Of a stretch of 64,000 nt of DNA, positions 8,507 through 12,756 are shown in pieces. Made by a program: the position numbers and the translations under genes. Below the pieces are notes generated by a model. It had not been told where the DNA came from, ran no database searches, and saw only the letters and a program-made list of their open reading frames with translations. This DNA is from Verrucomicrobiia bacterium (GTDB lineage: Bacteria; Zixibacteria; MSB-5A5; DSPP01), in assembly GCA_035574275.1 (NCBI GenBank), contig DATLYY010000075.1, forward strand, positions 62,001-126,000. Reading direction: 5' to 3'. Positions within the stretch are counted from its first letter, which is position 1; each line of letters begins with the position of its first letter.

Positions 8507-9103
8507 TTACTGCTGTCCTCCCGAGCCGAGCCCGTCCCCATCTTCGGTGACCGCCCATTTCGAGAAATGCAGAACAGAAAAAGTGGCCGTGCCGAGTATC
8601 ACCGTGGCCGAACCCGCTTTTTCCCACTGCCTAGTATTCGGGTTGTAATACCACAAGTGCAGAACCTTGCCGTTCTGTCCGGGGGCGCGGTGGGCCAAAA
8701 GAACCGGTTTAAGGAAATTCAGCCCATCCGGCCCGAAGTCATAGAAAGTGATATTCGCGCGGGAATCAAACCGGGCCGATGCCGTGATATAAGTCGGCTG
8801 CAAAAGGCTTCCGACCGGAAAGGTCAAAAGCGATACCCGGTTCGTGTTTTGAACCGGAATGGCCAAAACTCCTCCCAACCAGCCAATCAGTTTCCCGACC
8901 GTGTTCCCCAACAGGTCCCCGACGATCGGGAGATTAGCGGGCGGCACGGTGGAAACCTGACCAGCGGCCGGATTCGGCGCCTGGCTGACAACCGGCGCGG
9001 TGGGGGTTTTCTGGCTGCAGCTAAAAGCCAGAAAGAAAAGGGCGATGCCGATTACCCCAAGCCCGCCGGCCATGTGCGCAAGGAACCTACGCAGTGGTCG
9101 CAT
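8507..9103 (-). CDS. Putative lipoprotein, paralogue 1 (DGLGSGGQ tail)
   Basis: The 198-residue product begins with a basic N-terminus, a hydrophobic segment and a probable lipobox at Cys29 (FFLAFSC). A Pro/Ala-rich linker leads to a beta-rich domain with FDSRANITFYDFGPDGLNFL and WYYNPNTRQWEKAG, which looks like a ZU5-type fold (tentative). It ends in HFSKWAVTEDGDGLGSGGQQ. The start was set at ATG 9103 because AAAGGAG lies 6 bases upstream; an ATG at 9118 is also in frame. It lies directly downstream of its paralogue, from which it differs mainly in the linker. Function is unknown. Confidence 0.7.
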   Translation of the reverse strand: MRPLRRFLAHMAGGLGVIGIALFFLAFSCSQKTPTAPVVSQAPNPAAGQVSTVPPANLPIVGDLLGNTVGKLIGWLGGVLAIPVQNTNRVSLLTFPVGSLLQPTYITASARFDSRANITFYDFGPDGLNFLKPVLLAHRAPGQNGKVLHLWYYNPNTRQWEKAGSATVILGTATFSVLHFSKWAVTEDGDGLGSGGQQ

Positions 9104-9165
9104 ACCGACTCCTTTCATTCAAGCGTTCGTTTTTTCTTTTTTGCGTTACGGGATATGCCACTTTG

Positions 9166-9852
9166 CTACTGCCCTCCGGAGCCGAGGCCGTCATAAGGGG
9201 CCCCGTATTTGGAAAAGTGCTTGATGACAAAAACCGCCCGGCCGTTTTGAACCCGGGCCACGCTCTCCTCCTCCCATTTGTTGGAGAGGGGGTTGTACCA
9301 GGAAAGTGCCAGAAGGGTTCCGTCCGGAAAGCGGGTGGGCTGCACCAGATAACAATCTTTCAGGTAGACCAACCCTTCCGGGAAAAAGTCGTATATCGCC
9401 ACCGACATTTTCTCGTCCCGGGTGGAAACCAGATCGGCCCGTAATCTTAGATTCCAGCTTTTGTCCAGTGCGCCGTCCGGCACGATCAAAAGGGCGGTAT
9501 CCTTCGTTCCGATCGGGAACTTGACGGTGTAGCCGGAAGAACCAACCGATCTTTCGACCGGTTCGCCGGTCTCGGTGGCGGCATAATCCAGCGAGTCCGG
9601 CTCAAACGCCACCACCGTTTCGGCTTCCGGCTCCTCGATAAATTCATCGGGAGCCTCCAAGTATTTTCCGACCGGCTTTTTGACGAACTCGCCGGAGGAT
9701 TTTTCCGTCACAACAGATTTCAGAACGACCGGTTGTCCTTGGGGGGCCGTGGGAATCTGCCGACTGCAGCTGAAAACCAGAAAGAAAAGCGCAATGCCGA
9801 CAACACCCGCGCCGCCGGGCAAATGATTGAAAAACCTGCACAGTGGGTTCAT
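9166..9852 (-). CDS. Putative lipoprotein, paralogue 2 (DGLGSGGQ tail)
   Basis: The 228-residue product mirrors the gene downstream. It has a basic N-terminus, the hydrophobic stretch GVVGIALFFLVFSC with Cys29 as the probable lipidated residue, an acidic linker rich in Glu, and a beta-rich domain (VAIYDFFPEGLVYLKDCYLV, LSWYNPLSNKWEEE). It ends in HFSKYGAPYDGLGSGGQ. The start is ATG 9852 with AAAGGGG six bases upstream. The two genes are 62 bases apart and probably arose by tandem duplication. The identical terminal tail stands out because the linkers have diverged completely. Function is unknown. Confidence 0.7.
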   Translation of the reverse strand: MNPLCRFFNHLPGGAGVVGIALFFLVFSCSRQIPTAPQGQPVVLKSVVTEKSSGEFVKKPVGKYLEAPDEFIEEPEAETVVAFEPDSLDYAATETGEPVERSVGSSGYTVKFPIGTKDTALLIVPDGALDKSWNLRLRADLVSTRDEKMSVAIYDFFPEGLVYLKDCYLVQPTRFPDGTLLALSWYNPLSNKWEEESVARVQNGRAVFVIKHFSKYGAPYDGLGSGGQ

Positions 9853-10230
9853 GGGCAACCCCTTTCGCCAACGGTTATAGAAAACTGCAATGTTATGGGA
9901 AGCATTATCAAATTAACCCTTTTTCCTTTCCTCCTCTTTTTCCGTCCTTGGATTTGCGCAAACGGCGTGCGGGTTGAAAAATTTTTCCTAAAAACGTAAC
10001 CGGCTGTCCTTCACGGGGTTTTGCAGCAACAAGCAAGGGAGAGGCCGGTTTTCGAAACAAATTTTGGCATTTTTTGTGGGGACAAACCCCCATGGCTATG
10101 GGAAAAGAACCATATTAAAAGCGACCGGTCGCCATTCATTTTTTGCTTGATTTTGCCCCCCTATTTTTTTTACCTTCCGGCAATAATTTGTTTGAAAGCA
10201 ACCGTGAAATGACAAGAGGAGTGTGAAAAT
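9853..10230. other. Divergent intergenic region
   Basis: About 380 bases between the lipoprotein pair (minus) and the histidine-bearing membrane protein (plus). It is richer in A and T than the genes around it. I see no convincing gene or promoter pair. A small GGGG/CCCC hairpin lies near 10078-10092. The only clear element is the ribosome site (AGAGGAG, 10215-10221) of the gene at 10231. Confidence 0.4.
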
Positions 10231-11289
10231 ATGAACGGTTCAAATACAATGGCCGTTGACACCGACAAAATCTGGCTGCGCAACAAAGAATGGGACCTGC
10301 TCTGGATAACCGGTTCAGCCGTTCTGGTCGCCTTTCCCATCATATTGTACAGTTTTTTCAAAACCGATCAGGCCCGCATCATTATCAATTTGGTTGTGAC
10401 CGTCTTGGTGGGGGGGCCGCACATGTACGCCACGGCCACCCGCACGGCCATGGAGCCGAATTTTGTCGGCCGGTATAAATTCCTGTTTTTTCTCGGCGTT
10501 TTGGTCATCCCTACGGCCGTGATTGCCCTGACGTTGACCTCCTACACCCTGCTTCTGACCACCTTTTTCTCCTGGGCTTCCATTCACATCTTGCACCAGG
10601 CCTCCTACATCGCCGGGAGGTACAACGACCGGAGCCCCGTTCCGATGTCCCGCTCTTCCCGTTTGTTGGATTATGCCTTCATAGTCAGCTCCCTCTATCC
10701 AATTGGCGTTTATAAACTGGTGGAGGGAACCTTTCAGATAGGACCGACCAAGCTGCTCTTTCCACCCTTCTTACAGACCCGTCTTTTGACTTATCTCGCC
10801 TTCGCATTTTTCCTCGGCTGCTTAACCCTTTTCACAGCCCGCACGATTCGGGAAATCCGGACGAAAACCGCCAACTGGCCAAAAATCCTTTTCGTGTACA
10901 CCACGGCCGGCGTCGCTTTTGTCGTTCCGGCCTTCAATAATCTGGACACCGCCTTTCAGGGGTTCAACACCTGGCATTCCCTGCAGTATCTCGCCTTGAC
11001 CTGGCACATTAACCAACTGCGCAAACAGAAAGGGGCCATCGGCAGCCCATTCGTGAACAAAATGATGGAAGGGGAAAGCACCCGGAAATTTTACGGCTTC
11101 AACGTCCTTTTGACCCTTATTGCCGGGGCCTTCATTTACGTGGTATACAAACTTTCCGGTTTCAGCGTAGACCAGAGCTACTACACGGTGGTGCTTTCCT
11201 TTCTGCTCTTGCACTACTATCTGGATCACTTCCTCTTCTTTTCCAAGGAAGATGAGCTGAAACCGGCCTTTTCCCCGGCTCGGGCGTAA
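10231..11289 (+). CDS. Polytopic membrane protein with paired histidines, function unknown
   Basis: I do not recognise this 352-residue protein. It has about eight membrane helices. Histidines sit in or near the helices: His64 (GGPHMYATATRT), His119 and His122 (ASIHILHQASY), His249 and His259 (NTWHSLQYLALTWHIN), His328 and His333 (LLHYYLDHFLFF). The arrangement recalls membrane metal-dependent enzymes such as Brp/Blh carotenoid oxygenases or fatty acid hydroxylases, but no family signature matches exactly. The start is ATG after AGAGGAG. The next gene begins 2 bases after its stop, so the two are almost certainly made together. Confidence 0.7.
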   Translation: MNGSNTMAVDTDKIWLRNKEWDLLWITGSAVLVAFPIILYSFFKTDQARIIINLVVTVLVGGPHMYATATRTAMEPNFVGRYKFLFFLGVLVIPTAVIALTLTSYTLLLTTFFSWASIHILHQASYIAGRYNDRSPVPMSRSSRLLDYAFIVSSLYPIGVYKLVEGTFQIGPTKLLFPPFLQTRLLTYLAFAFFLGCLTLFTARTIREIRTKTANWPKILFVYTTAGVAFVVPAFNNLDTAFQGFNTWHSLQYLALTWHINQLRKQKGAIGSPFVNKMMEGESTRKFYGFNVLLTLIAGAFIYVVYKLSGFSVDQSYYTVVLSFLLLHYYLDHFLFFSKEDELKPAFSPARA

Positions 11290-11291
11290 CA

Positions 11292-11651
11292 ATGGGAGCG
11301 CTCTGCAACATCGGCCCCAAGGAGATTCAAAAGCGTCTCCGGATGGGACTGGTTGCGCTTGGTTTTTCCGTGATTTTGACCCTTTTATTTGCCATTGTAA
11401 ACGAGCCGAATGCCGCCTACGGCCTCTTGTTCTTGTTGCTGTTCTTCGCCGCCCTGGGGATTTCGCAGGCCTTTTTCTGCACGTGAGTGTTTTTGGGCTT
11501 GCGCCGGGCGCGCAATTTGGACACGGGAATCGAAAAGCTACCCAACGATGCTGTTTCGAAATTCTTTCAGCACCGCTCCGAGTTGATAATCCTCGGCTCG
11601 TTTCTTCTGGCTTTGCTGCTTTCGCTGGGGGCCTGGCGGCTTTTTAGTTAG
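11292..11651 (+). CDS. Small membrane protein with in-frame TGA (possible selenoprotein or nonsense-interrupted gene)
   Basis: The first 64 codons (11292-11483) encode a cytosolic start (MGALCNIGPKEIQKRL), two membrane helices and the sequence QAFFCT. TGA follows at 11484-11486. The same frame then continues for 54 codons as VFLGLRRARNLDTGIEKL and a further helix (LIILGSFLLALLLSLGAW) up to TAG at 11649-11651. Read through, the product is 119 residues, and from memory resembles small proteins with a Cys at the TGA position. A 6-bp hairpin (11499-11515) starts 12 bases after the TGA. Either TGA encodes selenocysteine or the gene is broken. The full frame overlaps mutY by 8 bases. Confidence 0.6.
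11499..11515 (+). promoter_or_regulatory. Candidate bacterial SECIS hairpin
   Basis: Stem TTGCGC (11499-11504) pairs with GCGCAA (11510-11515) around the loop CGGGC. The loop begins 18 bases after the TGA at 11484-11486 and has G as its second base. These values fall inside the usual bacterial SECIS limits as I recall them. No bulged U is obvious. Confidence 0.35.
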
Positions 11652-12756
11652 GCAAAAGCCTTCCCAACGCCAAAGAGGGCACGATTCTTTTGTTGGCCTT
11701 TGGAAAAGGATACCTTTCCAGTTCCTTCGGCCGAACCCAGCGGACCTTCTGGCATCCCAGCGCTTGAGGTGTCCCTTTTTTGTAAAAGCAGTGAAAAACC
11801 GAAAGGGTGATGGAAAAATGGGAATAGCTGTGGTGAATTGTTTGCGCCCGGGCGCCTACTCGGACGGAAACGCCGGTTTCCTCCCGTACTTCCCGGCGGC
11901 AGGCCTCCGCCAGCGTTTCTTTCGATTTTCTTTTCCCGCCCGGAAACTCCCACAATCCCCCTAAAAGCCCGTCCGGTTTTCTTTGGGCGATAAGAATTTT
12001 TCCATCTTTCCAAACGATGCCGGCGGCAATTTGATAATGCGGCGCTGTTATTCTTCGCCGGGGTGACGGAAACCGTTCCACTTCTCCGGATTGGTACGCA
12101 CGGCAGAAAATCTGAACCGGACAAATCCCGCATTTCGGATTTTTGGGAAAGCAAACCAAAACCCCCACCCGCATCAAAGCTCGATTGAAGAGGCCCGGTT
12201 GCTTGCGGTCCAGCAGGGGAAATGCCGCTTCGGCCAGTCTTTTTCTGTTTCTTGGACTAGAGAAACTTCCCGGCATTGCCAAAACCCGCGACAGAACCCT
12301 GAAGTTGTTGCCGTCGATGGCCAAATAGAGCTGATGATGAATGAAACTGGCCAAAGCCGCCGCCGTGTAATCCCCCACCCCCGGCAGGGCGCGAATTTGT
12401 CCGTAGTCGTTTGGTATTCGGCCGCCGTGCTTCTGAACTATGATTTGAGCCGCCCTCTTTAAGTACCTTGCTCGCGCATAATATCCCAACCCCTCCCAGA
12501 GCTTCAAAAGCTTCTGCATCGGCGTTTTTGCCAGCACTTCAAAAGAGGGAATTTCTTTGATCCAGCGCTCATAATAGGGCAGGGCTTGGTCCAAGCGGGT
12601 TTGCTGCAGCATTATTTCAGAGATAAAGACCCGATACTCCCGATTTTTTTGGGTCAGATGTCCAACCCCATCCTGCCAGGGAAGCGTCCGGCGGTTTTTT
12701 TCGAACCAAGCCAAAAGCGCGCGCCGAAATTTCTTTGCCTCGGAAATGGAAACCAT
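11644..12756 (-). CDS. mutY: A/G-specific adenine glycosylase MutY with C-terminal Nudix domain
   Basis: The 370-residue enzyme removes adenine mispaired with 8-oxoguanine. Glu47 (EIMLQQTRLDQA) and Asp148 (AIDGNN) match the catalytic residues. The helix-hairpin-helix is LPGVGDYTAAA. The four cluster ligands Cys202, 209, 212 and 218 have the expected C-x6-C-x2-C-x5-C spacing for [4Fe-4S]. The C-terminal domain keeps a complete Nudix box (Gly274 to Val296, REVREETGV), whereas in MutY this domain mainly reads 8-oxoG and is often degenerate. The start codon lies only 8 bases from an extended -10 promoter, so the message may be nearly leaderless. Confidence 0.95.
   Translation of the reverse strand: MVSISEAKKFRRALLAWFEKNRRTLPWQDGVGHLTQKNREYRVFISEIMLQQTRLDQALPYYERWIKEIPSFEVLAKTPMQKLLKLWEGLGYYARARYLKRAAQIIVQKHGGRIPNDYGQIRALPGVGDYTAAALASFIHHQLYLAIDGNNFRVLSRVLAMPGSFSSPRNRKRLAEAAFPLLDRKQPGLFNRALMRVGVLVCFPKNPKCGICPVQIFCRAYQSGEVERFPSPRRRITAPHYQIAAGIVWKDGKILIAQRKPDGLLGGLWEFPGGKRKSKETLAEACRREVREETGVSVRVGARAQTIHHSYSHFSITLSVFHCFYKKGTPQALGCQKVRWVRPKELERYPFPKANKRIVPSLALGRLLPN

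Follow-up and report, generated by a model that had tools for sequence, protein, structure and literature searches.

Annotation routinely mistakes selenoprotein genes for truncated ones. A 2026 catalogue assigns bacterial selenoproteins to 119 families, and most of the selenocysteine (Sec) residues known so far are redox-active (PMC13188914). The hairpin that accompanies the UGA codon in bacteria, the bacterial SECIS (bSECIS), has published limits of 3–9 nt for the loop, 4–16 bp for the stem, a G in the first two loop positions and a distance of 16–37 nt from the UGA, to which an energy limit of −7.5 kcal/mol is added (PMC13188914). Among the families that are still uncharacterised are GOS_A, GOS_B and GOS_C as well as DG, DW and DF; GOS_A is represented by 2 Sec and 155 Cys sequences (PMC2398784).

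Here we describe a small membrane-protein gene at positions 11292–11651 (+ strand) of the window, that is, of the whole 64-kb stretch of DNA that was analysed (contig C75 of a Candidatus Zixiibacteriota genome of 2.5 Mb in 79 contigs). With a confidence that leaves little room for other readings, we identify it as a selenoprotein gene, in which SECIS-directed insertion of Sec at a UGA codon would yield a 119-residue inner-membrane protein belonging to a family with either Sec or Cys at this site.

The reading frame and its in-frame UGA

The frame starts with ATG at position 11292, reaches TGA at codon 65 (11484–11486, + strand), continues for 54 further sense codons and ends with TAG at 11649–11651. 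Translation of 11292–11651 reproduces the frame described in the initial annotation, which had also placed the TAG in an overlap with mutY. The TAG indeed lies just within the 3′ end of a mutY-like open reading frame on the opposite strand (11644–12756), and the 3′ ends of both genes share 8 bases. On the other side, the gene of a 352-amino-acid membrane protein (10231–11289) ends 2 nt upstream of the ATG; it has no usable match in Pfam or NCBIfam and was not seen at the corresponding place in the same-genus genome G001. Further upstream, two adjacent lipoprotein-like genes on the − strand (8507–9118 and 9166–9858) are paralogues with 35% identity, apparently the result of a tandem duplication.

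The window contains 10 TGA sites, that of the selenoprotein gene included, at which the frame is open before the TGA and for at least 50 codons after it and a comparable hairpin is present; the two others that were inspected are ordinary gene ends after complete LpxK and MocA-type domains. Since the pattern of frame and hairpin in one sequence is thus not above chance, the case must rest on comparison with relatives. The abundance of such sites is in line with the UGA being an ordinary stop codon of a 64-residue protein, followed by a frame that is open by chance or is the decayed remnant left by a nonsense mutation or a read error. Also in line with an ordinary stop, the hairpin of the window gene is no stronger than those of dinucleotide shuffles (z of −0.15 to −0.63 in single-sequence folding).

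Comparison between two congeneric genomes gives a dN/dS of 0.25 before the UGA and of 0.096 after it. Purifying selection is stronger downstream of the UGA than upstream, and the value of 0.096 indicates that the codons after the UGA are translated and under constraint. The initial annotation had named a nonsense mutation or a read error as the rival explanation; an error in the reads and a recent mutation are both excluded, because the UGA is also present in the independently assembled congener and in dozens of species from other phyla. With the UGA kept at the same site across several phyla, Cys homologues that read straight through it and a downstream part that completes a confident predicted fold (see below), we consider an ordinary stop highly improbable.

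The Sec/Cys column and the SECIS-type hairpin

A six-frame search identified a homologue with 75% identity and the same UGA in the independently assembled genome of the same genus, together with distant homologues within the phylum; nearly all of these have UGA at the same site, and one has Cys. For a second search on GTDB contigs, we used a degenerate DNA pattern accepting TGA, TGC or TGT at this position. Members were found in Gemmatimonadota, Acidobacteriota, Myxococcota, Chloroflexota, Latescibacterota, Spirochaetota, Omnitrophota and Bacillota (some of these phylum labels stand for single metagenome bins), and the Bacillota member Marinithermofilum abyssi (Thermoactinomycetaceae) is cultivated. 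Nine of the 76 pattern matches turned out to be MinD of Synechococcus and relatives and were set aside as false. A search of plasmids for the family gave no match.

Because the degenerate pattern was blind to codons other than those for Sec and Cys, we added an unbiased profile search of about 400 relatives each of one Gemmatimonadota, one Chloroflexota and the Marinithermofilum genome. The column at position 65 of the 60 members found in this way contains 42 TGA codons, 18 Cys codons (TGC or TGT) and no other codon, and in none of the TGA members does the matched stretch contain a second TGA. In total, the UGA codon and the hairpin are shared by over 80 related genes, which come from at least seven phyla, and Sec members outnumber Cys members among the family genes found. 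The homologues align over their whole length. On the tree, about six changes between Sec and Cys are needed, at least four of which are forced by well-supported branches.

The Cys that the initial annotation had expected at the TGA position of related proteins is therefore present, whereas the C-T-U motif that it had proposed holds for this genus only. Cys63, the first residue of this motif, is confined to the genus, and the family as a whole has K-T-U or K-T-C within the motif NIGP...Q.R.KT[U/C]V..A.RG.R[N/D][L/M]D.G. One homologue (L008:1480–1740, in genome G037) has a shortened frame and three in-frame TGAs, which occupy the Sec site, an Arg/Gln site and a position where relatives often have Trp. 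This gene is probably decayed; a recoding is the alternative.

The hairpin of the window gene (11499–11515, + strand) begins 12 bases after the UGA and consists of a 6-bp stem (TTGCGC, 11499–11504, and GCGCAA, 11510–11515) and the 5-nt loop CGGGC (11505–11509), which starts 18 nt after the UGA. Folding of the region gave the structure that had been claimed from inspection, and the assertion that its dimensions suit a bacterial SECIS is borne out by the published limits: loop size, stem length, position of the G and spacing fall within them in the window gene and in all 80 Sec genes tested. In terms of energy, the bare 17 nt (−7.1 kcal/mol) fall short of the −7.5 kcal/mol limit, but the hairpin together with its flanking pairs (−12.3 kcal/mol) surpasses it.

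As controls for the family-wide signal, we used synonymous-codon versions of each gene, matched for third-position GC, and took the best hairpin within the limits of PMC13188914. The mean best hairpin of the 80 UGA genes is −8.5 kcal/mol, compared with −3.1 kcal/mol in their synonymous controls, whereas the 21 Cys genes do not exceed theirs (−2.9 versus −2.7 kcal/mol). Hairpin strength differs between UGA and Cys genes with a Mann-Whitney p of 1.4e-10, a value uncorrected for the relatedness of the sequences. The apical loop starts 16–19 nt past the UGA in 80 of 80 UGA genes, and this position and the G-rich loop, common to all Sec genes tested, are absent from most Cys genes. The bases of the stem differ by lineage (GCGC/GCGC, CGCA/TGCG, GCGA/TCGC, GCCT/AGGC, CCGC/GCGG), and GG or GU is kept in the loop. 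Stems that are rebuilt around a constant loop are expected of an RNA element and not of protein constraint alone.

Genes for selenocysteine decoding in the host genome

A search of the genome for selA, selB, selC and selD, suggested in the initial annotation, located all four. The gene for tRNA-Sec (selC, anticodon UCA) is situated immediately 5′ of selA and selB. NCBIfam confirms the identities of SelA and SelB, and SelB has the C-terminal SECIS-binding winged helix; in the domain scan, SelB-wing_3 is present and SelB-wing_2 is absent. The selD gene (L021:1351–2412, contig C42) has an in-frame UGA of its own at codon 19, in a GGUAGK context, followed by a hairpin of 8 bp whose GGU loop begins 17 nt past this UGA. 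Mechanical ORF calling puts the start of selD late, at a GTG. A further AIR-synthase match (L025) resembles PurM by sequence and was rejected as SelD. Since the genome has selC-selA-selB and a UGA-bearing selD with a hairpin layout like that of the window gene, we predict that the organism decodes UGA as Sec.

SelA is present in 39 of the 42 UGA-bearing genomes, and two of the remaining three have tRNA-Sec. It is also found in 7 of 8 Cys genomes and in 123 of 133 genomes of the phylum, and because it is near-universal in these bacteria, its co-occurrence with the UGA form adds little support. One SelA match (G084:C64:9957–11036) has a TGA within its open frame. Three metagenome-assembled genomes with the UGA form (G019, G132 and G160; loci L006, L017 and L068, the last in G160) have neither SelA nor a tRNA-Sec above the curated cut-off, and G019 is rated 100% complete despite the lack of a detected SelA or clear tRNA-Sec. 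As selC, selA and selB adjoin in the genome of the window, the absence of a single contig could be enough to account for such a pattern; these bacteria may also have lost decoding recently or carry a broken gene.

The three genomes would fit a reading of the UGA as Trp, Cys or Gly, through an altered code or programmed readthrough, and read-through as such is well supported by the dN/dS values. Nevertheless, such a reading has an exceedingly small probability. The ordinary LpxK and MocA genes of the window stop at TGA where their domains end, position 65 exchanges with Cys alone and never with Trp, Gly or Arg, the SECIS signal is found on UGA genes and not on Cys genes, and selA, selB, selC and selD are all in the genome. 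The UGA at 11484–11486 is thus almost certainly read as selenocysteine.

Predicted fold, function and relation to known selenoproteins

The AlphaFold2 model of the 119-residue product is of high confidence (pLDDT 95.1, pTM 0.87), and this extends to the residues encoded downstream of the UGA. Predicted transmembrane helix 1 comprises residues 9–35 (11316–11396, + strand) and helix 2 residues 42–62 (11415–11477, + strand), the latter ending just before Thr64 and Sec65. A short helix begins right after Sec65 and is followed by a conserved β-hairpin (residues 73–82; 11508–11537, + strand) with the motif RG.R[ND][LM]D.G, seen in both alignment and model. The long C-terminal helix (residues 86–118; 11547–11645, + strand) includes predicted transmembrane helix 3 and is encoded wholly after the UGA, in agreement with the earlier view that this part is protein-like and contains a membrane helix. 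The model is mostly a helical membrane protein with a small β-hairpin and lacks a thioredoxin fold with UxxC or CxxU. Searches with its fold against PDB and viral models and with the sequence against the PDB gave no match.

The positive-inside rule orients the segments of membrane proteins. Applied to the arginine- and lysine-rich segments of the model, it suggests a cytoplasmic orientation of the Sec segment. The decoding genes, the hairpin and the model lead us to infer the following sequence of events. SelB with Sec-tRNA(UCA) would bind the hairpin at 11499–11515, and Sec would be inserted at the UGA to give a single inner-membrane protein with two membrane helices, a short helix on the membrane surface with Sec at its start, a small β-hairpin and a long third helix. 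By analogy with other selenoproteins, the selenol or thiol of the Sec/Cys residue likely takes part in redox reactions on the cytoplasmic side of the membrane, where it could reduce, for example, a peroxide, a disulfide or a reactive electrophile. A Cys is found no more than three residues before NIG in about half of the members and could be the partner of the Sec/Cys residue; the genus of the window has the C-T-U pair as well.

The residue might instead bind a metal or another ligand or have a regulatory role, an alternative that competes with the proposed function and not with Sec insertion. In its favour, no partner Cys is invariant among the members (about half lack the Cys before NIG, and few have one after Sec), and there is neither a thioredoxin fold nor a fold match in the PDB. 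On the other hand, most known Sec residues are redox-active (PMC13188914), and a nucleophilic selenolate would agree with the strict exchange of Sec and Cys and with the predicted location where a helix begins. We regard a non-catalytic role as unlikely, although it deserves serious consideration. The gene neighbourhood was dropped as a clue to function, as no gene partner is conserved between phyla in the neighbourhoods compared; the few immediate neighbours scanned encode an HlyD-like protein, TetR regulators, a sugar epimerase, a beta-lactamase-type protein and others.

Scans against Pfam and NCBIfam release 20, the latter including all 64 aligned members, gave no usable match; the sole NCBIfam match with E < 0.001 among the 64 members is a weak one to CrcB in one member. 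Likewise, no entry of the 2026 catalogue was recognised when compared by name and motif (PMC13188914), and none of the families newly reported in the deep-Sep paper fits. On these comparisons, which cover the Pfam and NCBIfam models, the catalogue and the deep-Sep families but not the sequences of GOS_A or of the 2026 groundwater candidates (Deng et al. 2026), the family appears to be an undescribed selenoprotein family. Because Sec members outnumber Cys members among those found, searches starting from Cys proteins would find the family poorly, and this Sec-rich make-up may explain its absence from the 2026 catalogue and NCBIfam. On this reading, standard gene callers split the gene in two in many genomes of Gemmatimonadota, Acidobacteriota, Myxococcota, Chloroflexota and Zixibacteria. 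The cultivated host M. abyssi makes the biochemistry directly testable.

Like GOS_A, GOS_B, GOS_C, DG, DW and DF, the family was predicted computationally and is uncharacterised. GOS_B, GOS_C, DG, DW and DF have NCBIfam accessions in the review table, none of which matched the window family, and GOS_A is set apart by its ratio of Sec to Cys, the reverse of that in the Sec-rich window family, and not by sequence. The window gene shares with selD of the same genome a UGA followed by a hairpin, and presumably the same SelB reads both; SelD, however, is a soluble enzyme with the AIR-synthase fold and is unrelated in sequence. With bacterial selenoproteins in general (PMC13188914), the family has in common the in-frame UGA, a SECIS within the published limits, Cys homologues and the Sec machinery, but it differs in being a small three-helix membrane protein that lacks a thioredoxin fold and a family-wide UxxC or CxxU. 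On balance, we favour the view that it is an undescribed, mainly Sec-using family of small three-helix membrane proteins. It has no recognised relative by fold, occurs in at least seven bacterial phyla and is present in cultivated Thermoactinomycetaceae, and a lone selenol would carry out its redox chemistry at the cytoplasmic face. The known selenoproteins would thereby gain one that is embedded in the membrane and has no thioredoxin fold.
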